From Syncephalis plumigaleata (lineage: Eukaryota; Zoopagomycota; Zoopagomycetes; Zoopagales; Piptocephalidaceae): a stretch of 22,889 nucleotides of DNA. This document shows positions 4,859 through 21,604 of the stretch, piece by piece. Made by a program: the position numbers and the translations under genes. The stretch lies in contig JAIXMF010000220.1 of NCBI GenBank assembly GCA_025201365.1, positions 1 to 22,889 on the forward strand, read 5' to 3'. Under the pieces are notes generated by a model. That model searched no databases, had not been told where the DNA came from, and saw nothing but the letters and a program-made list of their open reading frames with translations. Numbering within the stretch: the stretch's first letter is position 1; every line of letters starts with the position of its first letter.

Positions 4859-4887
4859 CAGTGTTTTTCCATCCAATTTGCGCATTT
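4859..4887 (+). repeat. Left terminal inverted repeat of the 537-bp element
   Basis: Starts CAGTGTTTTTCC directly after TA at 4857-4858 and is matched by the right repeat with two mismatches near the outer end and one near the inner end. Bases 4864-4884 match perfectly. Confidence 0.85.
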
Positions 4888-5080
4888 ATCCTTTAACTTT
4901 TGCGGGTTATTAATAAATAATCTATTCAATTGTTAATGCCATTATTACAATAGAAATGCCAATTGATATAGCATGATAATAATAACAATTCAATATGTAA
5001 TTAATACTTCATTGATAGCGATAATGATCATCATCAATTCTATAAGGTAGATGATACAAGTGTACTAGTATAGTTGGATA

Positions 5081-5287
5081 TTGCCATGTCATGTACTAAC
5101 AAGTAGCTATTGATTATCGTGTATGGAATCGGGATATGGCTGCATGTCTGAATTTCATTCAGATTATTCACGGTCATCGTGCTGATGGTCGTATTCCAAC
5201 ACAATTCCAACGAGGTGCCGTTCCTTCTAAACGTTCAAAGAAAGAAGGACAAGGACAACGGGGGTCCAAACAACGAAAATCAAATTA
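5081..5287 (+). pseudogene. TnpB/Fanzor-like nuclease, C-terminal remnant
   Basis: From 5112 the frame reads DYRVWNRDMAACLNF and continues to a basic tail (SKRSKKEGQGQRGSKQRKS) ending at TAA 5285-5287. The WNRDxxAAxNx block is the form of the third RuvC motif of IS605 TnpB and eukaryotic Fanzor proteins, where the Asp is catalytic. Just upstream (5081-5100) is a broken zinc-knuckle trace, YCH then SC, out of frame by two missing bases relative to the second copy at 13485-13817. The second CxxxxC knuckle is missing and no upstream nuclease domain is present, so this is a dead fragment. The Fanzor label is by motif only; another transposase-derived protein with this C-terminus is possible. Confidence 0.6.
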
Positions 5288-5366
5288 ACCGGGATAGTTA
5301 TAGCTATCTTTCACGAAAATACGTAAGTGTTATTATAACTATCATTTATTCGTAAAACAGAAGGCT

Positions 5367-5395
5367 AACTGCGCAAATTGGATGGAAAAAGTCTG
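5367..5395 (-). repeat. Right terminal inverted repeat of the 537-bp element
   Basis: The reverse complement starts CAGACTTTTTCC. TA follows outside at 5396-5397. It is also homologous to the 13388 end of the larger element. Confidence 0.85.
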
Positions 5396-5546: not shown

Positions 5547-7847
5547 TTATGCAGTTGGCGATGATGAAGTAATCGGTCCTGCACTAGTGGCTGCTTGTGA
5601 ATTAGATGTCGATGATGACGACACCGTAAGTAATGGTGGTGAGGATGATCGTGACTTGACCGACGATGATAGCGTGTCGATGCCCACATTACTCTTACGT
5701 CGACGATGACCGGCTTGCCATGCAGTCGATTCCGTTTGTCTAAATGCAACAATGGCACGATCCACTTCCTCCATCATCTCCAAGGCCATTTGATAGATTT
5801 CACTACCGACTGGATTGTACATGAGTGCATTCTGGAAGATTAATAACATGTCATGATGAAATTCATCTGTTGTATTAATTTTCTAATCAATCAGTCAATC
5901 AATCAATCAATAGTAATCGAGTTAGAAATATATGTTAATTCGCTATTACTGCTATTCTATAGAGGAATCTATTCAATGTTTACTTACACTATCACGTACT
6001 CGCTTGCGTACAGTGTTCAAATCCATAGGACGACGTACGATATCATAGTAGCCTGGTGCCTGTTGACGACGAATAGGCTGAGCAAATATCGAGGCATACC
6101 GATGATTGGCTAGATCGCGCCATATCATTAGTACGAGTTTGCGCCATGTCTTTAGTCGTTCGACCTCCTCCTCGGCTGTCATCTCAGGTCGAGTGATCGG
6201 TGAGGATGTCTTGCTCCAGTGACCGGGTTCACGCTCGGATTCCATGCCTGTCTCGCCTTCTGAGTATCGCATTAGTTATAATGTCGTTCATTCGTATTAT
6301 CTTCCTGTTGATCAAGCACTTACCTGCTAGTGCGGTATGTGTGTCCAATTCAGCGGTACTAACTATTGTGATGGCTAACGTGTTAGTCATGTATATATAT
6401 ATATTTATATTTATATGCAAGTGCACATCAACTATATCGTCTGGTTACCTTCTTCACGTTCTAATTCATTCATTGTTGATTCAGTGGCCGTTTCACGCTT
6501 AACACGCTGCGTGTCATCCGACAAATCCATCGGTGTGGGTCGTTTTCTCGTAGTCTTCGTGTCGGTATCCGTTGTATCCATATTGGTTGCATTATCCACT
6601 GTCTGTGTGTTTATATCTGTCATACTCGTGTCATGTACAATGGATGATTTATCCTTATTTGCATCTGGATTGCTTTCCGTGCTACGTGCACTATGCGATC
6701 TAGTGACCATAGGTGCTGGCAGTGCAGCATCTGTAATCTCTGTGTCCGATTCCATATTACTTGACTCCTTCTCCTGATCGACATCCATCTCTGTGGCAGA
6801 GTCACGTCTTGTTTCATCTACTAGTTGTGCATCATCATGATCACTTGATTGCACGGTTGTAGCTGGTATATCAGTTAATTGATCATCACTTTGTTTAGAC
6901 TCCATATGTTCTTGACTGGATGATTCCGCTTTCGTAATTGGCAATTTAGCAAGTGCATCCTTATTCTCAACCTTCTTGAGTTGTTCCTTATGTTTTGACT
7001 CTTCCTGTGGTACCTCTGCTACTGTCTGTTCAGTAGTAGTAGTAGTAGTAGTAGTAGCAGTCTTCTCATTATCAATATCCATAGTATCAGGTTTCGAATT
7101 AACTGCTGCTGTGGCTGTAGTTAACACCTTGTCCGAGTGCTTAATTAAATACTCATCCCATTGTCCAGTTCGTATTTGATGAATCTCCTCGACAAGCGTA
7201 CTAATCGCTTATGATTAACATGCTGTATCGCGTTTTTATATCATCTATACTACACCTACCGAAGACGATCTTCATCCTCTTTAATCGACTGTTTAAGCTC
7301 TTCCACTCGTAATGCATGAAAACGACCAGCCAACTTCATGACAGCAGGCATATCTAGAGTACGCGTAATATATTAGTACGATATACACATAGACACGTAT
7401 CGATTACATACCGCGTGCTCCACTAGTACCTGTTGATTCTTCAGGTCGACTCTTACTATAGTCATAGTTAGCAATAATAACAAGCGACTATTCACTTTAC
7501 TAACCGTTCTTCTTCAAGGTCAGCAATCAGCTGTTTATATTGCTTTTCGCAATTCTACACATTTGATCGATTGGTTACAATACTGACAAATAGTTTACGC
7601 ATTCCAGTGTAAATACCTTAGGAGTCAACGCTTCCGGTTGCGTAATCAAACGGTGTTGACGTAATATACGCGATACAGTAGGCCAACGATCATCGCCATA
7701 GTGATATATCGCTTGTAGTAAAAGTAGATTATTCAGTGTATTCCATACAGGCTGTGTGGTTATTTGCTCTGTAGGATCAGACACTGGTTGAACTGTAGGT
7801 TCCTCATTATTATTATTATTGCTATCACGCGTTGGACTTTTTAACAT
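5547..7847 (-). CDS. BRD8/Bdc1-like bromodomain protein, probable NuA4-type acetyltransferase subunit
   Basis: Eight exons: 7847-7617, 7554-7505, 7455-7412, 7353-7260, 7200-6449, 6362-6324, 6259-5988, 5882-5547; 605 aa. The N-terminus (about 35-95) has the SANT-like block of BRD8 (LLLLQAIYHYGDDRWPTVSRIL, then CEKQYKQLIADLEEER). A helical stretch follows (RVEELKQSIKEDEDRLR, about 120-160). Residues 165-390 are low-complexity, with a run of eight Thr from a GTA repeat at 7038-7060. The bromodomain is at about 435-545, with WRKLVLMIWRDLANHRY, APGYYDIVRRPMDL and NALMYN; Asn517 is the expected acetyl-lysine contact. BRD8 and fission yeast Bdc1 sit in Tip60/NuA4 complexes, so a histone-acetylation role in the nucleus is inferred. 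Exon 6 is only 39 nt. The gene converges on SDF2, with the 537-bp element between them. Confidence 0.88.
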
Positions 7848-8564: not shown

Positions 8565-11489
8565 CTATTGACCAACCTCGTCGCCTTCATCGTCAAAGGG
8601 TTCGTCATGCTCACTAGCAATGCTATTGGATATTTCTAATAGAGCCTCGATGGCCGGTGGAAGATGACCGCGATTAGCCTGCAGTACCACTTCACACACG
8701 TCGACATCGACATTAGGGAACATGTCACGTAGCGTGTTAAAGGCAGCGCAATAATCTTTGCTACGCGAGATAGTGCTACGCGATCGAATGGATTGTGCGT
8801 CCGATAGGGTAAATAGCGACGTGCTTGAATCGATGGACATGGTACGTGCACGACGAACACCCATGGGTACATTGGATGTGCCATTGACGGTGTTACCATT
8901 ACTGCTACCATTACTACTACCATTACTACCATTACCGTTATGATGACCTTGGACACCTTGGTTATTGCTGCTCAGACCACGATGAGATGATGTTGTCGGT
9001 GACCATGCAGTAGTGGAGGTGGAGATGCTACTAGGCGGTGGGGACGCGGCACCCGGGAACAGCACCGAACTGGATGTGGTCGAGGCGGTGTCATCATGCT
9101 CGTTTGATTCTAAAAATTGATCGAAGCGTCGAACTGCCCGCTGAGCCATATGGGCGCCCTTGCTTAGAATGCTAAATCCGTTGGAACGTAACGGTGCAGT
9201 GGTATTAGTGGTGGGTGTACCCAATGTACCCAACGAGCCAGACAACGAGGGTCGCCGAGATGGGCCACGGGAAGAAGAGGAAGGCGTCATAGGAGGCGTT
9301 ACATTTTCATAATTAATAGGAGAACGCACTGGCAATGAGCTCACATCTGGTTTCTCGCGGGCCATTTCCTCGAGTGTTCGACTGATATGACTATAGCAGC
9401 AGCAATAATGATGATGATCATTAGAATATAGCTATAATGTTTACATTAGTCATAACTTACCTGTCAAACTCTTCCTTGGTAATTGATAGGAGACTCGCGT
9501 CTAATCGTTCCAGGAAAGATATGACACTTAGCTAAATGACAAGAGAAAAGAAAACAAGGAATCAGTCAGCTGTAATGATGATAATCGTAATATTGCTTAC
9601 CAGATTGGTTAAATAGTAACCTGCTTCTGACTCTAATCGAGATGGATGTCGAAATCGAGAGATATATCTAAGAATAACAAGAACAAGAACAGGGTCAATA
9701 GTTCAATCATTAATATTATGCAATCTCGCAGTGTTGCCACTGTCCTTCAATAATAATGATGATGATAATAACGTACTGAACATTGGAGACCAATTGTTCG
9801 GGATTGGCCTTAATAACTACATAGATAAGAATGGGTAGAAAGATATCGGCACCGGCTGATTCACCTTCCATACGACGAAGTAAGCCTAGTAATGGTACAA
9901 TTGTAATAGCAAATTGATTAGCTAATTGTATCTACTCATACTAAATGGTCTAGATATCTAGTAGTAATACTTACTAAATATAACAATGCAGCAGTTGAGA
10001 ATACAAATCAATTTATCACGCGGTGCTCGATAATTATTCATTTTCAATAATTCTAATCATCATCATCATCATCATCATCATCATGAATAAGCTACTCTTG
10101 CATAATATCCATTTGTTTTCATTACCTTTTTGTGCAAATTCGAAATAGGATGCATTATGTGGACTGGTAGGAATATCTAAATGTCTCTCCTCAATCCATC
10201 GGAATATCTGAATCTTTTGGTGAATAATCTCGTCACGCTCAGCATCATCGGTTGTTCTGGAGCAGAATATCCTAAATATTATCGTTATAATGTCTACTTA
10301 TAGCAATACTACTACTGTCATCATTATCATCGTTGTATACTTACTCGCCAAACAATCGATTCATTACTAGTTTCTCCATGCCTTCACGAGCATTATCGAA
10401 TTCCGCCTCTGGTGCATGTCGCCACTGGTCACACTCGAGCATCTTTCCCTCGATAAACTAGATAGTAAAGCATGTTAAGATGTCTACTTCATGAAGCATG
10501 TCTCTTTTTCTTGTTTGCTGATTAATCAACAAGACCTAGAAATAATACGTACCTCTAGAAAGTCGTGGATAATTCGAATCTGCTCGTTGACCGTCCATGC
10601 TTTCTTGTTAAATTCACGTAGAAAGCTAGTTTCATTGTATTACATTTAGCGATATTGTCTAATCATTAATGACATAATGTGCTCACCTTTTTAGATAGCG
10701 TGTAATGGGTGCAGAGCTACGGTGACGCATTTGCTCCAAGAATTTCCGGTAATCAAACTTTGGCTTTTCGTCCTTTTTATCGGTCTGTCCGCCATCTGCC
10801 GATACCAATGTATTATCTTGCTTCGTATTAGCCGATGATATGGGTAATAATGAGGATACAATAGTGGATAAAGAGGAGAATTGGGAGGACAAAAATGCAC
10901 TGCTATTGCTATTGCTTATAGTACCTTTGCTGTTAATCATGCTTCCATTCGGACTGGCTCCAATCGACGGCTGTCGTTCGCTGGCCTTTGGCGTACGATC
11001 TCCGGCCTCTTTATCGGATTTGGACGTCGACACTGTTAATCGCGGGGTTACTGGCGGCGAGTCTAGCGTGGTGGAGCAATAAAAGTTAGACAGTCGATAC
11101 ATATACAAACGAGGGATTGTAGTGTATATGGTCATTGACTACTTACTAGATAAATCTAGACCATCGCCAATACGTCCAGTTTCATTTAGTAGTGCTGATG
11201 TCGAGTGAATCTGTAGTACCACGGGACGAGACGAGGTTCGTGTGGGCGATTTAAGCGACACTGGTCTTTTCACCTCCGAGCCATTAGAACTACTATTACT
11301 ACTATTATTACTATTATTATTTACACCGATAGTCGGTGTAGTATGTCCCGTGTTGCCATTAACTTGAACATTATTCGGTTGTTGACGTGGGGAAGACTTT
11401 GTCACTGCAGCTGTTGTCGTCAAAGTGTCATCCAAATGGGGTGACTTTACCGATTGAGCCATGATTGCTCCTTCAGTAACACTGATCAT
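8565..11489 (-). CDS. VPS9: Vps9-type Rab5/Vps21 guanine nucleotide exchange factor with C-terminal CUE domain
   Basis: Ten exons: 11489-11147, 11062-10687, 10625-10553, 10457-10345, 10271-10126, 10052-9975, 9885-9777, 9667-9601, 9531-9461, 9390-8565; 733 aa, or 724 from the second ATG at 11462. The family activates Rab5/Vps21 on endosomes for vacuolar sorting. After a Ser/Asn/Thr-rich N-terminus, the helical bundle and VPS9 core run from about 215 to 460: YRKFLEQM, WTVNEQIRIIHDFLEFI, AREGMEKLVMNRLF, YRAPRDKLICILNCCIVIF, then GADIFLPILIYVVIKANPEQL, with the conserved Asp, and GYYLTNL, with the conserved Tyr and Thr. The last ~45 residues form a CUE domain (LRDMFPNVDVDVCEVVLQ, then AIEALLEI) with the MFP and LL ubiquitin-binding marks, as in yeast Vps9. 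A long low-complexity linker with Asn/Gly/Ser repeats joins the two. Which ATG is used is uncertain. Confidence 0.93.
10058..10084. repeat. CAT trinucleotide microsatellite in a VPS9 intron
   Basis: Nine CAT units lie immediately upstream (on the gene strand) of the acceptor of the intron 10125-10053, so they occupy the place of the usual polypyrimidine tract. Confidence 0.85.
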
Positions 11490-13387
11490 TAGCAAAAGGA
11501 TGTAGACTAGGATACTATGTAGAGGATAAGATGGTCGTTGTTATAGTCGTTGCTGTGGTTGATATAATAGTGCTACTCGTCACTGTGGCTGTTGTTGTTG
11601 TTGTTGTCGTATGATGAATACTAGTGTTGTATGCCGTGTTCGTTACCGCTATAGCTGTGGCAGTTGGCGCGGCTATCAGATGCTATGATAATGATAATAA
11701 TGGTCACACTATGTATATCAGATAGCCAATCAAACGCACACTATTTCCCTAGGAAATAAAGGGTCTATGTGGAATATAGGCCAGGGGGAGAGTACAACGA
11801 GCAGAGTGCGAACGCGGGAAATGAAGATGCGAATAAGTAGTAATAAAGAGAAGAAGTAGGACAGGTGCACGACGAATGAAGACGAAAGAGTTCAACGAAC
11901 GTGGCACACAGAAGATAAACGAAGGATAGCAACGGTAAAACAAACGAGATAATAAGCGATAGGATGGATAGAATAGGGACGACAATATTTGTGTGCGTGT
12001 GTGTGCGTGTGTTGTAGTGAAGGAAGCCTGGAAAAGCCAATGGTCTCTCGCCTTACTAAGCCCACATACAACTATCAAATGACCGCTACTCACTAGCTGT
12101 ATACTGTATGGGGAAGACGGCGGAGGCAGTCTTCTGGATGTTAGAAAAGGGAGAAAAGAAAAGTGTAGAGCGATGAGTATTTTGTTGGTCGTCTGTGTTC
12201 AAGGAGAGATGCGTGGGTGAGTGTGAGTGTGCGTGTGGCTGTATGCGGTATGAATAACGAAATGAGTGAGAGCGAATAAGGATGTGTATACTACAATAAT
12301 AATAATAATAAAAATATTGCTGGTTAATATATGTGTGGATGTATGGATGTGTTTACTACTTGCTTTCTTTGCTCTCTTATTCTATGAGTATGGAAGCATA
12401 CACAGCAATGGTAGTCTATGCTTAATGACCCAGAATAGCTTCCTTTAGAAATAAACTAATACGTAAATGAGATGACAGCAGTAAAGTAAATAATAGACAC
12501 AGACGACAAGTGTCAATGAAAGAATGCAGGTTATTAAAGTTAGCGCGGATGCTCTATTGCAGCATAACAATGACTGTAAAGAAGGCATAAAGCATCGCCA
12601 TACGCTTACCTTACAGTGTATCCACACGCTACAATAAGCGTGCAAGACCCGTTTATCGGTAGATGACTTGGCAAACTCGTGTGTGTGTTGACTGATGAGT
12701 GTATGCGTGGAGAACTGAACGGACAGAGAGAGATAGAAGGGAGAGGAACGCGAGCAAACGAAGAATCCGTACGACAGCCAGCGGTCGTGACTTGACTAGA
12801 TTGGCTATAAAAAACAAACAGACAACGTGCGTAGGTCCGCGTGGTATGAGATAGGCCGTGTCCAAACAGTAGGTAACCAAAAGGTCAGTATGGTGTGGAG
12901 ACGAAGCACGCGATGGAAGGCTATATGCCGCCAACAAACAAGCAAGCAATTAGGCAAGCAAAGACGAAGAGAAACCAAAAGTAAGATAGACACTAGGAAG
13001 CACGTGTCTACAGAGTAAGTTCAATGCTACTGAATATATAAACGGCCTACAAGAGCACGGAATGTAACTTAGATGTGCTATAGTAAATAGGTATTGTGTA
13101 AGAAAAACAAATGTATTAAAAAGAAATGTGGTTTTTTCGAGCTCGTTACTTGGTTGGTCAGTTGGTCGACTGGTTAATGCGATTGATTACAGAGAGAGAA
13201 GGTAAGGGAGAGAGAGACAGATCAGTGTAAGAGGGCTCATAAACAGGTCACCAAGATCATCATTAGTTGCATATCTTGCTAATTGAAACACTACAGCTGT
13301 TATAATCATGTTAGACATTACCTCATCTACCGTTTAGTTATTTATTTATGGAGATTACACAATGATTGAATCATGTAGAAACACCTA
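11490..13387. other. Long non-coding stretch upstream of VPS9
   Basis: About 1.9 kb without a convincing gene. Much of it (11760-12060, 12120-12260, 12680-13010, 13190-13230) is purine-rich on the plus strand, so CT-rich on the VPS9 strand, which fits a long leader or promoter. Open frames of 60-118 codons exist on both strands but are low-complexity and lack recognisable domains. GTT/GTC-type repeats lie near 11570-11620 and a GTGTGC run near 11990-12012. Introns in the VPS9 5' UTR cannot be excluded. No tRNA or snRNA was recognised. Confidence 0.45.
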
Positions 13388-13414
13388 CAGGACTTTTCCA
13401 GCCGATTAACACTG
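13388..13414 (+). repeat. Terminal inverted repeat, 13388 end of the 2.27-kb element
   Basis: Begins CAGGACTTTTCCAGCC and contains CCGATTAACA. The inner flank continues to match the right end of the 537-bp element for about 100 non-coding bases. Confidence 0.75.
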
Positions 13415-13484
13415 CTGGCCTTTCGTTTCTATAAATAAATAATAATAGTTATAATAATACGTAGTTTATGTGATTGAGGATACA

Positions 13485-13817
13485 TCACGGATAAGTTGTT
13501 TCTTGTTGTCCTTCATTTCTTGAATGTTTAGAAGTAATGGCACTTTGATGTAGTTGTGTTGGAACACCATTTCCATTGTGAAGACTGAGAATAATCTGAA
13601 TAAAGGTCAGACATGCTGCCATATCCTGATTCCATACACGATACTCGAATCCTTTACCATTCATGTCATCTTTACAATTCTGATGTGTGCATCTAATCAA
13701 ATAATGAATTAGTATATTGTTATAGATTGTACTCATATTAAGAAGGCATGACAAGTGACAGTAGGATATCTCGTCAATTAGAAAGACTTGAACACCATGC
13801 TTCATTGTTATCCACAC
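13485..13817 (-). pseudogene. TnpB/Fanzor-like nuclease, C-terminal remnant (second copy)
   Basis: The frame holds FLIDEISYCHLSC, a possible intron (GTAC...TTAG, acceptor near 13693), then RCTHQNCKDD, EYRVWNQDMAACLTF and a tail ending at TGA 13485-13487. This resembles the zinc ribbon (paired Cys knuckles) followed by the RuvC-III WN-x-D block of Fanzor/TnpB proteins. The catalytic-type Asp is kept, but the usual Arg before it is Gln. It is clearly homologous to the 5112-5287 fragment in both DNA and protein (QRGAVPSKRSKKEGQ against HQSAITSKHSRNEGQ). The upstream RuvC-I/II region is not present; the F-box-like gene on the other strand lies in that place. It is therefore a remnant, though it may still be transcribed. 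Confidence 0.6.
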
Positions 13818-13903
13818 TTGCGTATGATTTATTCGTGTATTCTTGATTAAAATAACGTCATCGTATTTCTCTACCCTTATTGCCTTTCTTATTCCATTCC
13901 ACT

Positions 13904-15525
13904 ATGTCTACTACTACTGCTACTGCTGAAGTATCGAGTAATCCCAACTCGTCTTGTAGATTACTACTTTGTCTGAATAGTCTTCCATTTCATGACCAGC
14001 GTGTCTTCCGTAGTCTACTTGGTCATATCGGATTATTGCGTTTATCAGCATGTTGTCGCTCGTTAAGAAGTAGTATTCGACATGACCAAATATTATGGCA
14101 TGAACTATATCATAGGGATTTTCTATCAGGAGCCTATTATGTTAAAGAAATGGATTTCGTATTATGGTGTATACGCACGGATGTCAACAATCCATGTGCA
14201 TCGGATAAACGAGCCGATCTACTAGAGAATGTGGACTGGTACAACACATATCGTCGACGAATGAGCACCGAGAATAATTGGCGATATGGACGATGCAAGA
14301 CCACGCGTATCGATATGAAATCTGACAAGGATGAAGTACATTATAGCAGATGTGGTAAAGATAGCTTAGTTACCATACAACAAAGTCGCTCAGACGAAAC
14401 ACCAGATCATAATTATTTTTTAGAATATCTACCGCATTCAAATCTTAGATCAAGCAACAATACTATATATAACAGTACATTATCTACATCGCCAAACATT
14501 CTTTTGTTAGATATTGGTAATGAAGCTCAGTGTTTTTATGTCCTGGGTGATCATTACATAGCTGTTCTCCCTGATGTAATCGAGAAAAATACCAACTATA
14601 ATGTAAAAATACTTACTCGCAAACATGGTGGCATTTTTACTACGTTCGATGTTTCAGCACGATATCGAGTGAGGACAATCGATGGAAAATGGGTATTATT
14701 AGTATATGGATCATACGAGTCATCCGATGATTTGCGAATTTGTAAGATTGATAATTGTACAATACTGCAATGTAACTAGTACTAATAATCAATGAATCTA
14801 GTCAATGCAATGGTATTCGATATAGAAGATAGTATTATGTGTCCAGGAAGCATTGATGGTACATGGAGCGTGGTATGCTTTATAAAACAACCAATAATAC
14901 AGCAATAATATACACGGCAAGACTAGTCAAAGATGATGATACGGATCGTATTGAATGGGCATTATATCAGTTCTCGAGCAATAATCCTGCTATACAATTA
15001 CAAAATGGCTGGTTTGAACTACCTATGAGGATGACGGATATGAGAATATATGCTCATAATTCATACGATTCGTATATGATAATTGAATTTGGTGACCATC
15101 CTGGTTATAATCCATACATAATCCATAGCCTAGCATCCAGTGGTCAAAGCCACATTCCACGTAATTGCTACACTATATCTGACCTACATATACCTATCCC
15201 ATTGTTAAGGGCTGGATACAAGTATTTAGCATTTGATTCCAAACCAGGAAAAGTATGGACAGACTTATCCTACAATGACGATCAAGTATTGCAAATGCGG
15301 GATATAGATTTTATCAGAAACCTTATTGGAGATCTCTATGTTTTTACTACGTATCATAATCAAACATACAATCGATTGCTTGTAGACATCAATACAAAAG
15401 AAATAATACGCAGACTGGACGTGCCAAACACAGACATGTACTTTAATGATTTTGCAATGCTTGGTACGATAAGTAGTTCTCGTGACAACGATGTACAAAC
15501 AATACAAGACTATGGTGAACTATAA
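13904..15525 (+). CDS. F-box-like protein, carried inside a TIR element
   Basis: Proposed exons: 13904-14741, 14802-14858, 14927-15525; 497 aa. The N-terminal region (about 18-72) fits an F-box: LNSLPFHDQRVFRSLLGHIG, then LLRLSACCRSLRSSI and ILWHELYHRDF. It is followed by the WYNTYRRRMSTENNWRYGR block common in fungal F-box proteins. The rest is beta-rich with no clear repeat and may be a degenerate propeller. F-box proteins usually recruit substrates to SCF ubiquitin ligases. Without splicing, the frame stops at 14778-14780. The first intron (14742-14801, GTAAGA...TACTAAT...CTAG, 60 nt) is well supported. The second (14859-14926, GTACAT...CTAG, 68 nt) restores frame but has a weak donor, and an acceptor at 14902 would also be in frame (505 aa). 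If intron 2 is wrong, the gene is frameshifted. Both flanks belong to the mobile element, so the gene is probably cargo. Confidence 0.68.
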
Positions 15526-15630
15526 CAAGCATCAATAAATCATTACAATTCATTATCATTTCTTATAACATAATGGCGTTAACAATTGTGCAAGATTATT
15601 TATTAATAAACTGCAAAAGTTAATGGTTAA

Positions 15631-15657
15631 CAATGTTAATCGGTTGAAAAAACATTG
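15631..15657 (-). repeat. Terminal inverted repeat, 15657 end of the 2.27-kb element
   Basis: The reverse complement begins CAATGTTTTTTCAACC and contains CCGATTAACA. It has about 7 mismatches in 27 against the opposite end and is closest to the left TIR of the 537-bp element over its first ten bases. Confidence 0.72.
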
Positions 15658-15659
15658 TA

Positions 15660-15726: not shown

Positions 15727-17957
15727 ATGGCCACTCAGGAACAAGCAGCTTGTTCGACGAATAATACATTGACTACAACAATGGAGAGTGAACATAGTTC
15801 TAACGATCAGAATGGTTCACTTTGTATACAAGAGCTGGTGTATACGTTTATTCGTATGCCTAGTGGCAACACCAAGATGGTACGCTTGCAACGTGGACAG
15901 TAAGTATATAGGAACACACATAAAGTAGCTAGAATAGTAGTATTGATACACGAATGATAGTACTGTGAGTCTGGGCAAATTTGGATCATTTCAAGCGGAT
16001 GATATCATCGGTAAACCATTTGGTCTGTCTTACGAAGTGGTTGGAAAGCGTCAACTTCGTGTTATACATCGATTAGACGAGGACGATGCAGGTAATGTAG
16101 CATCGACTAAACACTAGTAGATTGTCAAGCATACTTATTCGCTCACTCGACCGACACATCATCTCGTATAGCCTATGATTCTGATGCCAATAACAAGGAT
16201 ATTGTACAGGATGGAAGTAGTCAGCAATTAAGTTATACGGAAATTGAGAAATTAAAACGCGATGGTCTCGATGGCAAACTCGATGCTGAGGTGGGTCGAT
16301 GTGCATCCGCTCAACCCTAATGACTAACTAGCTCGTACACACCAATAGACCTTAATCCAAAAGGTAGCGGAAAATAATCAATCATTCGATAAGAAGACGG
16401 AATACTCAAAGGCCAAGTATATGAAACGTAAACGACAAAAGTAAGTGATCATGCAACGATGCTGACATACCATTAACGTGGCATTAGGTTCTCCAAAGTG
16501 TTCACGCCCATCCGACCTACACTTCACGCGGTATGCGATCATTTCTTTACAAAGACACCGTCTAAGATCATGCAAGTTCATGCGATCAAGGCATGAACGA
16601 TGGTTAACATGTAGATTATAGGGATATCCGATTGGATACACTATCGCAACTACTTACATTCGGTAATGTGTTTGCAGGCACACGAATGCTAGTGGTGGAT
16701 GACGCACAAGGCATGCTTGTCTCGGCCCTACTAGACCGTATGGGTGGTCATGGTCAGGTGCTAGCCATTCATGATGGAGAGAATCACAACTTTGACGTAA
16801 TACGCTACTTGAACTTTCCACGTCACTGCACGGAACCATTACGTACCATTAGTTGGGATCAAATATACAATACAAATGAAGATGAGGATGCTAATGAAGG
16901 TTAGTGATGATGAACGTAGACTAGCTAGTTATTGTTATTATTATTATAGATCTAAACAAAAAGCAATAGCAGAGAATACTACCGAGGAGTTAAGCGAGTG
17001 GCAACAAAGAAGCATGGATCGACGACGTATTCGTCGAGAGAGGATTCAAGAGGCGCGTAACCTATTGAATGCTGGAGGATTTGACGGGTAATTAATATAC
17101 ATCGTATATATCATATATATAATCTGACACTTTATATTACATTAGATTACTAGTGGCTACGCAATTATGTCCGATATCCGTGCTGAAGCATCTATTACCG
17201 TATGTGGCCGGTTCTCGTCCCATCATATTCTACGGTGCTTGTAAGGAGGTATGTATATGTACATCATAGGACATGATTAGTATGGATGATACTGACGAGT
17301 GTGTATTCATATATATATATCTTGTAAATATCTAGCTATTGGTAGATCTGACAGCTTATATGCGACGCTCGCCAGAATGTCTTAATGTACAACTGACCGA
17401 GAGTTGGCTTCGAGAACATCAGGTGAGTGTACAACAGTGTGTGTGTGTGTGTGTGTACTACCCATTTATTCGTGTTCATAAAGTGGACAGTAACAGACAA
17501 GTAAATCATGTATCCACTGACACAATGATGCCGTTTTATTGCATTACACAGGTACTATCAGGACGTACTCATCCATTAATGAATATGAGTTCAGGTGGTG
17601 GATTCCTCGTAACTGCCACCAAAGTGATTGATTGTCCCTCCTTACCAAGCTATCGCAACCAAGTGTCATCTTCATCAGCATCAGTAGCATTGAATAATGA
17701 ACAAGGTAAGTAGATACTATTACAGTAATACGAATAAATGATGGCATTGCTCATTATCATAACTAGTTGACATACCAATGGAAGAAGGAGAAGGAGAAGG
17801 AGAAGGAATGACAACATCTGTAGTGACATCTACTGAACCAGTTACCCTAGTTAACAACACGGTACAGCATGAATCGAGTGACAGTTCAACTAAACACTTG
17901 TCATCATCACCATTATCATCTGCATGTCCTAATGATAAAAAACCCCGATATGCATGA
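15727..17957 (+). CDS. TRM6: tRNA (adenine-58-N1) methyltransferase non-catalytic subunit
   Basis: Eleven exons: 15727-15899, 15961-16091, 16172-16290, 16349-16440, 16488-16571, 16622-16899, 16970-17087, 17146-17248, 17336-17422, 17552-17705, 17767-17957; 509 aa. Trm6 pairs with catalytic Trm61 to make m1A58 in tRNA, including initiator tRNA. Family marks in order: VSLGKFGSF, DDIIGKPFGLSYEV, NNKDIVQDGSSQQLSYTEIE, FDKKTEYSKAKYMKRK, RLDTLSQLLTFGNVFAGTRM, ALLDRMGGHGQVLAIHDGE, LNAGGFDGLLVATQLCPISV and the C-terminal ESWLREHQVLSGRTHPLM with NMSSGGGFLVTAT. As is usual for Trm6, no full SAM-binding motif is evident. Intron 5 (16572-16621) uses a GC donor (GCAAGT). The acceptor of intron 6 at 16969 is the one that keeps frame. 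The tail is Ser-rich and acidic with a GE repeat. Confidence 0.94.
17437..17456. repeat. GT dinucleotide microsatellite in a TRM6 intron
   Basis: Ten GT units lie shortly after the donor of the intron 17423-17551. Confidence 0.8.
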
Positions 17958-19416
17958 ATACATGTGTATGTATGCGTATATACGTGTATGCGTGTATGCA
18001 TGTGTGTGTGTGTGTGGTTTTCTTTTAATTTTTATTACTATAAATTCTACACTTTTTTGCTTAATCTTTTTATAATAATGACATGTCTCCTTGGCTAATT
18101 TGTTGTTTAACCTCCGATTAATTAACTCCGATCCGATTGTCTATAATTGCGCAGTCTAAATTGGATATGGATGACATCAAAGGAGAAGAAGAAAAAACCA
18201 CTATGGTACAGCTTCATGCTTGGCTCTGTGATTCACATTGTTATCACGATGTATGACATCATGTCAGATGATCCAGTAATAAAAAAACTACAATTGTACG
18301 CATGGTCAGATACCTGCTCATAAAACGGATAAAATCATCGTTGTACATAAAAGAGAGAGAGAGAAAGCCATTTACCGATGAAGTACGAGGGATGCGTCAT
18401 CTGTCACTATTATTACACTACTGCTTACTGTTCATCAAACCTATTTTTACTCAGTACAAAGGAATGAAGTAGTGACACTGTTCACGCGACATCTAGAAGC
18501 ACGAGACCCTGTTGATGTCACATCACTACGTTGAAATACTGCATTGACTGATTGAGTAGCCAATTCGTATCTACTTGTTCTTTCTCTTTCTTCTCTTCTT
18601 TTCTTTACTCTTACTTTATATCGCTTGCTCCATTTGGTTAAAGTAGAGAGACGTGTATATGTGTGTGTATGCGTTTTATTACTCCTTGACTAGTCCCGTT
18701 ACCCTACTCTTTTCATTCGTATCACCATAACACTCGGTGACAATTAGTGGAATTGCATCCAGAAAGAGATACGCTTTATTGTTTATTGACATTTGACGCA
18801 TTGGTGGTGTATTCCTCGCACATTTTCAAATTTCTTATTGTTTCTTCTTCTTCGTCATTATCATTGTCATCTCAACTCACCAACTTCTTGCTTCTTTCCT
18901 CACTCCCCTTTTTCTTATTGCTACTACTGCAGTTGTTCACACTTTGTCTAACAAGAGTGTAGTATATTCTCAACGAACTAGGGTTGACTTCTCTGCTATA
19001 TTCACCCTATCCTGTCTACGTTCATTTGTTTGTTTGTTTGTTTATTCACTTGACCAATTGCTTGCTTAGTCATATTAGCGACAACTTGTACTGATCAGCT
19101 TTCTCACTTTCGGACCTTTACTTCCTTCTTCTTTCCTGTTAGTATCCTTACTCCACTTCTTAACTTGCTTATTACTCTGCTATTGTAGTGACTCTATAGT
19201 CCCATCTAGTTGCATTGGACTGCCTTGTTTCTTTCTCGTCATTCGTATTAACGCTATACATCTTATTCTCATTCTACAAAGGCTGCTGAGTAGCTTTCCA
19301 TTCACTATTTGATACGTCTTTATTATCCTTGTCATTGTTGTTTATACTACTGCTGCACTACTATTGCATTACTGTTGCATTACTATTACTATCATATTCG
19401 TTCATTTTTATTAGTC
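17958..19416. other. Intergenic: TRM6 3' region and a long CT-rich leader of the kinase gene
   Basis: About 1.45 kb. 17958-18120 is AT-rich 3' flank with TG repeats. 18120-18540 contains short open frames (see the finding on 18171-18323) but no clear gene. From about 18580 to 19410 the plus strand is strikingly pyrimidine-rich (runs of TTC, CTT and a TTTG repeat at about 19025-19042), like the leaders of other genes here but much longer. The frame at 18747-18962 is leader-type low complexity (Ser/Leu-rich). Confidence 0.45.
19025..19042. repeat. TTTG tetranucleotide repeat
   Basis: About four and a half units in the CT-rich leader upstream of the kinase gene. Confidence 0.7.
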
Positions 19417-21604
19417 ATGACACCTAGTTCTTCACCGCACACCGATCCTGAAGAGCTCTTCACCATTTTGGAGAAGCTAGGCAGCGGTTCGTTTGGCAGC
19501 GTGTACAAAGCGTTAAACAATACAACGCACGAAGTAGTAGCTGTCAAAAAGATCGATTTAGAAACGGCCGAAGATGATATTAGCGATATCCAACAGGAAA
19601 TTGCCTTATTATCTCAGTGTGACTCGCCTTACATTACTCGCTACTTCTCGTCGCATGTCAAGGGATATAAATTATGGATTGGTAAGTGGATTGAACCGCA
19701 CTTTTCAATATAGTGGCAAATGGCTTATTTTACATGTCAATATGCTTATTCATAGTGATGGAATACATGGCGGGTGGTTCATGCTTGGACTTGGTAAGTA
19801 ATCATGTGATGAAAATGCTCTAGTAGGATGACACGCTAACTACTGTTCCCTGTTGCTAGCTTAAACCATGTCCATTCTCGGAGAATGATATCGCCGTTAT
19901 CCTACGTGAACTACTATTAGGTCTTTGCTACTTGCACAGCGAAGGAAAGATTCATCGTGACATTAAAGGTAGGTGTAATGAATTGCATTACATTTATGGG
20001 GAATAGATGCTTATGCCTACAACAATGATTTAGCCGCCAATATCTTATTATCAGGACAGGGTGAGGTCAAGTTAGGTAAGCTTTATTCTCCTAGTATATA
20101 TATATATATGATATTACGATATTATGAACTGACATTTACCTCAATTAGCGGATTTCGGTGTTGCCGCACAGCTTTCCAACCAGAAAGGAAAGCGCAAAAC
20201 ATTTGTGGGAACACCGGTAGGTAATCAGACATAATCGTAATCATTATTAATAACAAGAATGTATATTTCGTAGTTTTGGATGGCTCCAGAAGTGATTCAA
20301 CAATCGGGCTATGATACAAAGGTAAGTATAATATGTAATAGTATGTCTACTCCTTATGACTATCATACTAATTGCATCTATTCATTTAGGCAGATATTTG
20401 GTCACTTGGTATTACAGCAATTGAAATGGCCAAGGGTCAGCCACCTTATGGCGACTATCATCCAATGCGAGTTCTATTCCTAATTCCTCGCAATGATCCA
20501 CCCAAGCTTGAAGGGCGATTCTCAAGTGCATTCAAAGAGTTTGTCAGTCTGTGCTTGACTAAAGATGCAGATCAAGTAGGTTTCAATGAAGGAGCATTAC
20601 CTATTTATATTTATATATATCTCGTTTAGCGACCATCGGCAAGAGAACTATTGGAGCATAGGTTTATTGTTAATTGTACGCGTAGTACCGACGTGCTACA
20701 GGATCTAATTGAACGCTACGATAATTGGCGTTTATCATTGGGAGATGTAACACCGTCGGACTATACACAAACCATGTAAGTAGTAGTGCAAATAAATAGA
20801 TAATAATAATGTCCATTTGATTAACTCGACATTGATGATGATGATGATGATGATTCAGCCTTACAGAATCAACTGAAGACTTTATGTCAACTTGGAATTT
20901 CAGTACCATTAGACGGGAGTTACCCACGTCATCGACCGTGCGTGGAGCGGATAACATTCGTCCGGTATCCTTTTCATCCGAGAGTGTTGTACTATCGACT
21001 AGTCATACTGGCGACTATCATCTTCCATCAGAGATCAGTGAAAGCGATACTATTCGGGTGAGTAATTAGTAGTCAATGCATTATTACTATTACTATTTAA
21101 CTGTTTACACGTAACTGTAATGCTAATATATATACATGCTGAATGATATGTTATTAGTATCGAAATTCAACTATAGCCAAATCCACCATTAGACTAATGG
21201 ATCTACAGGCTACAACCGATGAGAATGGTAACACATCATTAGAAACGACCGAATATCCCGATGGCACTGTTCGACGTATTCCGCTAGCTCGTGCCTCGAT
21301 GGTCATTCCTCCTGACGAGGCAGAGGACACCTATTTGGTTGGAAAGGAGCTGGCTCTTTCAGTGCTACTACCAGCATTAGCGAAGATCAAAGGAAAGGGC
21401 GACTCGCAAACCGACAATGCTATCCTAAATGTAGAACAGGGTGTATTAGAGCTGGAGCGTACCCATCCGGAACTATTGCTCACCGCGGTAACCGAGATTG
21501 TCGCCGCACTTCAGAGTACACATCCTGAGATTCAGGAGCGTGTCGGTCTCCCCGCCACCGCAGTGGAGATTCATCATCCTGTAACGGCGACGCGGCCACC
21601 ATGA
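19417..21604 (+). CDS. Germinal-centre kinase, GCK-III type (STK24/25, fission yeast Nak1 group)
   Basis: Ten exons: 19417-19681, 19756-19793, 19860-19968, 20034-20075, 20149-20216, 20274-20321, 20390-20575, 20630-20775, 20859-21057, 21158-21604; 515 aa as read. The Ser/Thr kinase domain (about 15-265) is complete: [10 protein letters not shown] loop, VAVKK lysine at 44, HRDIKAAN with Asp135, DFG at 153-155, and the GCK T-loop [16 protein letters not shown] with Thr169. [13 protein letters not shown] is typical of GCK-III. The C-terminal helical part ([15 protein letters not shown] to [13 protein letters not shown], about 425-490) resembles the GCK-III dimer/MO25-associated tail. These kinases act in polarity, septation and Hippo-like pathways. 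The last 20 residues are unlike the rest, and an open frame continues in another register to 21939, so a one-base loss in CCCC at 21550-21553 is suspected. Exons 2 and 4 are only 38 and 42 nt. Confidence 0.92.

Follow-up and report, generated by a model that had tools for sequence, protein, structure and literature searches.

Here, we present an analysis of a transposon-borne gene family in Syncephalis plumigaleata, taking as reference a 22,889-bp stretch, contig JAIXMF010000220.1 of assembly GCA_025201365.1 (the window; contig C136 in our numbering). At 13388-15657, the window holds a 2,270-bp non-autonomous element that has terminal inverted repeats (TIRs) and TA flanks and contains a decayed remnant of a Fanzor nuclease gene and, antisense to it, a spliced F-box gene as cargo; this combination is dispersed as one recurrent unit across the genome. 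On a sample of well-preserved copies, the F-box reading frame bears the marks of being kept by selection while the adjoining Fanzor remnant decays, and the mosaic structure of the copies strongly indicates frequent short-tract ectopic gene conversion among them. Altogether, we consider it likely that these are Fanzor-derived, TA-flanked elements with an F-box cargo under selection, that their copies exchange sequence by conversion, and that their products form a repertoire of adaptors for Skp1-cullin-F-box (SCF) ubiquitin ligases.

Results

The element starts with CAGGACTTTTCC, finishes with GAAAAAACATTG, and is flanked by one TA dinucleotide on either side (13386-13387 and 15658-15659), which we read as the target-site duplication. 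Based on end alignments, its imperfect TIRs of ~33 bp lie at 13388-13420 (+), on the 3' side of the Fanzor remnant, and at 15625-15657 (−), the latter also supported by a genome search; TIRs are common to the family. From left to right, the interior consists of the Fanzor C-terminal remnant on the minus strand (13488-13901), exon 1 of the F-box gene (13904-14741), a 60-nt intron (14742-14801) and exon 2 (14802-15525), all three on the plus strand, and a 3' tail that reaches the right end (15526-15657) and is longer in other copies. An initial annotation of the window had noted that both ends match those of a 537-bp element at 4859-5395, and alignment bears this out, inner flanks and TA on each side included: the reverse-complemented right end aligns with the left end of the shorter element and the left end with its right end, the two elements being relatives in opposite orientation. 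Based on end alignments and the genome search, the 537-bp element is a deletion derivative, i.e., a miniature inverted-repeat transposable element (MITE), with a Fanzor C-terminal remnant of its own at ~5105-5288 (+), and it is present in high copy number, with at least 41 long matches including itself at 85-100% identity (40 scored of 1017 candidates).

In the searched genome (32.6 Mb in 383 contigs), the whole 2,270-bp segment is found at no fewer than 39 other places (40 scored including itself, of 848 first-look candidates), 32 of them at 82-85% identity over ~1.9-2.2 kb and seven shorter ones at 81-87%. For the right end (15555-15657), 606 first-look candidates yielded 40 scored places, itself among them, and the F-box exon-1 protein matches at least 134 places genome-wide, a lower bound in which some loci are counted twice, once per haplotype; by count, 107 of these matches have no stop. 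Because the segment recurs at dozens of places, the window element is one recurrent unit and not a chance pairing of ends. The initial annotation had offered three origins for the composite. A fusion of two insertions cannot explain the window copy, since the composite recurs in dozens of copies, and the two ends do not belong to two separate elements. The other two, a gene captured by the element and a lineage-specific F-box family spread by transposition, are supported, as the F-box gene, the Fanzor remnant and both TIRs are found in combination at many sites whose flanks are unrelated.

We studied 42 copies, of which 30 (the window copy included) were taken by DNA score and 12 further ones by protein score. 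They represent 31 sites, i.e., 11 locus pairs have common flanks and no further flank sharing was seen at the threshold used. Left ends were recognised in 28 copies, right ends in 30, and both in 25; the expectation that F-box paralogues are flanked by these ends thus holds for the latter, one or both ends being unrecognised in the other 17 copies. An exact TA adjoins 26 of the 28 left ends and 21 of the 30 right ends, and is present on both sides in 18 of the 25 two-ended copies (15 of 19 if one copy per pair is counted), at a background TA frequency of 0.098. The two-ended copies measure 2245-2771 bp, mostly near 2.4 or 2.66 kb. The spread comes largely from the tails after the gene, which, measured from ~20 nt ahead of the stop region up to the element's end, are 117-148, 282-290 or 511-531 bp long (15 copies). 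At three places, F-box copies lie side by side (C1:579102-579914 and 580976-581854; C85:15882-16694 and 17759-18634; C223:83238-84110 and 85027-85905). In the C1 and C85 neighbours, one member is only 53% identical to the query, possibly reflecting a tandem or divergent subfamily.

The spliced F-box gene joins 13904-14741 to 14802-15525, and the family length is ~522 amino acids (aa). The intron begins with GTAAG and contains a TACTAAT box before the final AG, and GT, a TACTAAT-like box and AG are kept in nearly all 42 copies. A plus-strand F-box gene with introns that fills the interior had been proposed from the window alone; strand, extent and the presence of an intron stand, and there is a single intron and the family length replaces the proposed 497 aa. 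The gene had also been taken as apparently intact, which does not hold for this copy: compared with other copies, it is one base short near 14880, and its spliced frame, broken in exon 2, ends after residue 314. Either a genuine frameshift or a mistake in the assembly could account for the lost base. Across the sample, the frame is open to the common stop near residue 522 in 30 of the 42 copies (22 of the 30 DNA-ranked and 8 of the 12 protein-ranked ones), among them L067, in which the aligned part starts just past the ATG. As for the other 12, nine are broken, and L064, which carries an in-frame deletion, reads open through 530 codons; in L053 and L056, the alignment clips the start, and both genes are possibly intact.

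The F-box label is fair but weak. PF12937 (F-box-like) matches residues 34-70 of the window copy with an E value of 0.00098 and was found in all eight members scanned (best E value, 0.00023), the matches being below the Pfam cut-off wherever scores are given. Outside the F-box module, the protein has no convincing relative in Pfam or the PDB. In its own genome, no F-box relative outside the family was seen among the 134 exon-1 matches or among the matches listed from 84 scored of 381 candidates; likewise, no relatives of the protein were confirmed in viral contigs (60 pattern matches) or prokaryote contigs (100 pattern matches). Five copies are intronless, with 514 aa open in one frame (C318:266676-268217, C321:14886-16427, C351:758478-760016, C54:7343-8884, and C157:26123-27661), and are 66-87% identical to the C318 copy (among the matches listed from the same 84 of 381). 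Because the copies on C318, C321 and C54 have a gap of ~79 bp, the intronless set looks like a sublineage that has spread. We rejected precise intron loss as proof of splicing, since this gap (in L064 on C318 and in the copies on C321 and C54) takes the end of exon 1 together with the intron.

The initial annotation had also placed a nuclease remnant antisense beside the F-box gene. Consistently, when a profile built from seven remnants (five from F-box elements and two from MITEs) was searched against 177,635 distinct PDB sequences, the two best matches were Fanzor 1 of Parasitella parasitica (E value, 0.00054) and the Fanzor of Spizellomyces punctatus (E value, 0.0028). The C-terminal half of the antisense open reading frame matches the C-termini of both, and only ~130 residues remain; a Pfam scan of the remnant gave no match. 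The remnant has in-frame stops in 22 of the 36 copies in which blastn found it, the set used for all stop and indel counts, and has no full RuvC domain, so it does not qualify as a working nuclease. It is a fossil, perhaps one that is not evenly neutral. We do not claim a retained omega-RNA, as RNAalifold predicted 0 pairs on 30 Fanzor-side ends (26 from F-box elements and four from MITEs); these ends may encode a guide RNA with little shared structure. Elsewhere in the genome there are 25 matches to PF07282, all below the cut-off, of which 13 lie in open frames of 614-667 aa (C347:12358, C354:30676, C4:22358, and others), and these frames are candidate intact Fanzor genes.

Two kinds of evidence suggest that selection distinguishes the two genes. 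First, frame-breaking indels were found in the remnant of 16 of the 36 elements (388 bp), in the F-box module of none (346 bp), and in the rest of nine (1190 bp, intron included). Second, the ratio of nonsynonymous to synonymous polymorphism (pN/pS) is 0.85 in the remnant (27 copies, one per pair), 0.47 in the F-box module, i.e., approximately the first 140 residues, and 0.69 in the C-terminal part (21 open copies, one per pair). The corresponding ratio for pairwise substitutions (dN/dS) has a median of 0.61 and a range of 0.21-0.93 over the 435 pairs of the 30 open copies. Some 20-codon windows of the C-terminal part have a pN/pS above 1, up to 1.29, a value without a formal test. Diversity is 0.067 in the remnant, 0.04-0.12 over residues 1-135 and 0.135-0.32 beyond residue ~135, where the protein is hypervariable; L064 was excluded from the diversity and linkage calculations.

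The 11 locus pairs have flanks that are 93-100% identical. Both flanks agree in 10 of the pairs and only the left one in L047/L049; in this pair, L026/L032 and L048/L068, the ends are unrecognised, and the compared flanks therefore begin at arbitrary points farther out. Most simply, paired loci are two haplotypes. Inside the elements, however, the partners are not correspondingly close. The F-box module is 90-96% identical within pairs, as between unrelated copies (mean, 92.5%), and the Fanzor remnant, measured in nine of the pairs, is 92-98% identical (mean over all copy pairs, 93%). The C-terminal part of exon 1 is 92-100% identical in seven pairs and 73-77%, the random level, in four; for exon 2, two pairs are at the random level, and in nine hardly any other copy is as close as the partner. 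In six of the 11 pairs, the difference is 0-4% in the C-terminal part of exon 1, as against 4-8% in the module, the more conserved of the two. Because by mutation alone a conserved module would not outpace a hypervariable part in divergence, exchange with other copies is the simplest cause.

Block switches along the gene fall at different places in different pairs, and there are whole blocks over which a locus resembles its partner no more than it resembles a randomly chosen copy. Among 220 windows along the paired genes, identity to the partner is below 85% in 47, and in all 47 another copy is closer. Consistently, the excess mutual information between variable sites in 30 independent copies is 0.093 for neighbouring sites and drops to 0.004 at a distance of 80-160 bp, i.e., linkage is nearly gone by ~100 bp; biallelic r2 is low at nearly all distances and hard to interpret alone, the decay being visible in the multi-state measure. 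The block, identity and shared-state comparisons were made with the 11 pairs, and a comparison of patches with 12, the window copy and its counterpart L069 included. We set aside a statistic from the patch comparison (49 of 64 patches) for its best-of-many bias and do not rely on the shared-state comparison, in which, for 1190 of 1568 pair differences, each of the two states recurs in two or more further copies, whereas random change would give 34-37% on a yardstick that takes no account of site tolerance; the argument rests on the block and identity comparisons.

The other haplotype of the window locus, at ~C90:274001-276235 (L069), has the same insertion, which is 92.9% identical to that in the window, with stretches of 97-100% and of 78-90%. 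The window contig as a whole resembles a second haplotype of this part of C90 (matches between 264987 and 276583, with 98% identity beside the F-box element), and several further small contigs likewise appear to be haplotigs. The MITE at 4859-5395 is matched on C90 by two pieces, flanks included, that are 96% and 94% identical, arguing that the general haplotype difference there exceeds the 2% seen beside the F-box element. These pieces overlap and have unmatched DNA between 265666 and 265722, so that the MITE on C90 contains an insertion or an internal duplication. Within the element, L069 (C90:273960-276260) shows many single-base gaps against the window, suggesting poor polishing within repeats.

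Tc1-like transposases of the DDE_3 type are represented in the genome by 31 matches at 26 places, and the 361 bp beside one of them show no ends by eye. Five DDE_3 frames of 383 aa have identical scores (C39:2343, C90:384266, C116:3680, C344:8816, and C362:904567) and could stem from an autonomous element active in the recent past. On C216, we rejected a DDE_3 match close to a remnant as a partner, because a right end at C216:14192-14273 puts that remnant in a short MITE-like element ~2 kb away. Beyond the two elements, domain matches place host genes in the window for a bromodomain protein (5973-6275, −), a CUE domain protein (8565-9431, −) and a protein kinase (19294-19713, +).

Discussion

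We suggest that an element of the Tc1/mariner type, with a TA target and ~33-bp TIRs, once encoded a Fanzor protein and lost most of that gene. The element would then have gained the F-box gene in its interior, antisense to the Fanzor gene, and would have been amplified to more than 100 places, presumably by a transposase supplied in trans. According to this model, selection maintains the F-box frame while the adjoining remnant decays, and short-tract ectopic gene conversion homogenises the 5' half of the element, i.e., the remnant and the F-box module, and reassorts the hypervariable C-terminal part. Given the F-box label and the diversity pattern, the proteins are most likely SCF ubiquitin-ligase adaptors, in which a constant F-box would bind Skp1 and a variable part the target. 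The family would then be a dispersed, recombining repertoire of recognition specificities, which may benefit either the host or the element.

Several observations weigh against this interpretation. Seventeen of the 42 copies have no recognised end on at least one side, and nine, including three of the 11 pairs, have none on both; we saw no empty site, and at the window locus both haplotypes hold the element; and among the DDE_3 frames no transposase with matching ends was identified (361 bp beside one inspected). At least nine of the 42 genes, that of the window among them, are broken, and both rankings by which the copies were sampled favour full-length, open copies. The F-box match is weak, a PDB profile search with the F-box protein gave no F-box chain, and, for the C-terminal fold, single-sequence structure models had mean predicted local distance difference test (pLDDT) scores of 45 and 33, too poor for a fold search. 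No pair of open copies has a dN/dS above 1, and positive selection is not demonstrated. The remnant is not evenly neutral: over its first 70 codons pN/pS is 0.5-0.7, and in the final stretch it is 1.5. Finally, conversion rests on one assembly, in which L069 has the many single-base gaps described above.

The function of the protein could be selfish. The F-box protein would direct the ubiquitination of a host silencing factor, of a competing transposase or of the element's own, and its variable part would track a fast-changing target. In agreement with this idea, the gene recurs within a mobile element and amplifies with it, and the C-terminal windows with a pN/pS slightly above 1, although without a formal test, are what such tracking could leave. 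On the other hand, the element appears non-autonomous, so the protein would act in trans, weakening selection on each copy; yet 30 of the 42 copies are open. We regard a selfish function as possible, if somewhat doubtful. We also venture, as an unlikely extension of the repertoire model, that these transposon-borne, hypervariable SCF receptors recombine like one population, with breaks at element sites feeding ectopic repair and generating a diversity like that in allorecognition or immunity. The breaks could stem from excision by transposase or from cutting by intact Fanzor relatives guided from the retained Fanzor end, and ectopic repair would keep the F-box module uniform and reshuffle the target-binding parts.

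For the mosaics, the main rival to conversion is an artefact of assembly or polishing, in which reads of different copies were mixed, such that the mosaics within pairs would be unreal and the transposon family itself real. The single-base gaps between L069 and the window inside the element and the base missing from the window copy fit this idea, as does the fact that pair identity was lost in the most similar part of the element, which mis-mapping predicts. However, the C-terminal parts of exon 1 that are only 73-77% identical in four of the 11 pairs are too far apart for mis-mapping, the two elements of the pair L015/L025 are unequal in length (2640 versus 2410 bp), and both members are open in eight of the 11 pairs. 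Moreover, a single chimeric join cannot yield both flanks in agreement, as seen in 10 pairs. We therefore consider an artefact rather improbable as the source of the mosaics, which we attribute to conversion.

The cargo might instead be a passive passenger, i.e., neutral and seemingly conserved because the copies are young, were re-copied from a few functional masters, or were sampled as best matches. The broken copies, the choice of the sample by match score and the ability of conversion to restore frames are in line with this possibility. Nonetheless, the Fanzor remnant sits in the same elements and is converted too, yet it decays; the C-terminal part is two to four times as diverse as the remnant and still open; and 107 of the 134 exon-1 matches lack a stop. 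These observations make a passenger improbable and support selection on the frame. Still less credible is a host F-box multigene family that lies near TIR debris by chance and was spread by segmental duplication: the copies without recognised ends would suit it, but the distance from the gene to the recognised ends is much the same at sites whose flanks are unrelated, and at the threshold used only the 11 pairs share flanks. Targeted hypermutation in place of conversion is the most remote of these explanations, for although transitions make up 1044 of the 1558 differences between paired loci, six of the 11 pairs differ less in the C-terminal part of exon 1 than in the conserved module, divergent blocks are differently placed in each pair, and most pair differences have both states elsewhere in the family (on the yardstick that ignores site tolerance).

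A literature search of titles and abstract openings returned no F-box gene in a Fanzor or mariner element, which is weak evidence as most subscription literature lies outside its coverage; the word F-box is absent from the main text of PMC3627910 and from that of PMC10711439, as far as these texts were available. Within this scope, no account was found that combines Fanzor-derived transposon ends, a selected F-box cargo and strong signs of pervasive conversion among dispersed copies. If confirmed, this combination would exemplify a natural transition from mobile element to recombining gene repertoire, and would provide a testable setting for two questions, namely, the role of Fanzor-type ends after loss of the nuclease and the fast diversification of ubiquitin-ligase targeting in eukaryotes.

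Repertoires for antigen variation or reception that are built by gene conversion include the var, VSG and pilin genes. The family described here resembles them in having constant and variable parts, mosaic copies and conversion; in contrast, its products are probably intracellular F-box proteins encoded on a DNA transposon, and neither a switch in expression nor a single expression site is known for them. Pack-MULEs (Mutator-like elements) and other Pack-type elements are non-autonomous DNA transposons that capture genes, and the elements studied here are likewise non-autonomous TIR elements with captured coding sequence. In one account of the coding regions of 10 Pack-MULEs, six were pseudogenes (PMC3053390); by comparison with what is described there, the elements of S. 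plumigaleata carry a whole spliced gene that is open in 30 of the 42 sampled copies, and have TA-target ends. Fanzor1 proteins occur in mariner elements with TA flanks, such as SPu-1 of Spizellomyces punctatus, which has 33-bp TIRs, and some members lack their own transposase (Bao and Jurka 2013, PMC3627910). As portrayed in that source, elements of the SPu-1 type share with those described here the TA flanks, the TIRs and Fanzor sequence inside the TIRs; here, however, all that is left of the Fanzor is a decaying, truncated C-terminus, and an F-box gene occupies the interior. Finally, the fbx-a genes of Caenorhabditis are an expanded, fast-evolving F-box family that, according to the part of PMC10015627 available to us, apparently arose from tandem duplications. 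High copy number, rapid evolution and an F-box joined to a partner domain are common to both families, whereas the copies in S. plumigaleata are dispersed on a transposon and mosaic.

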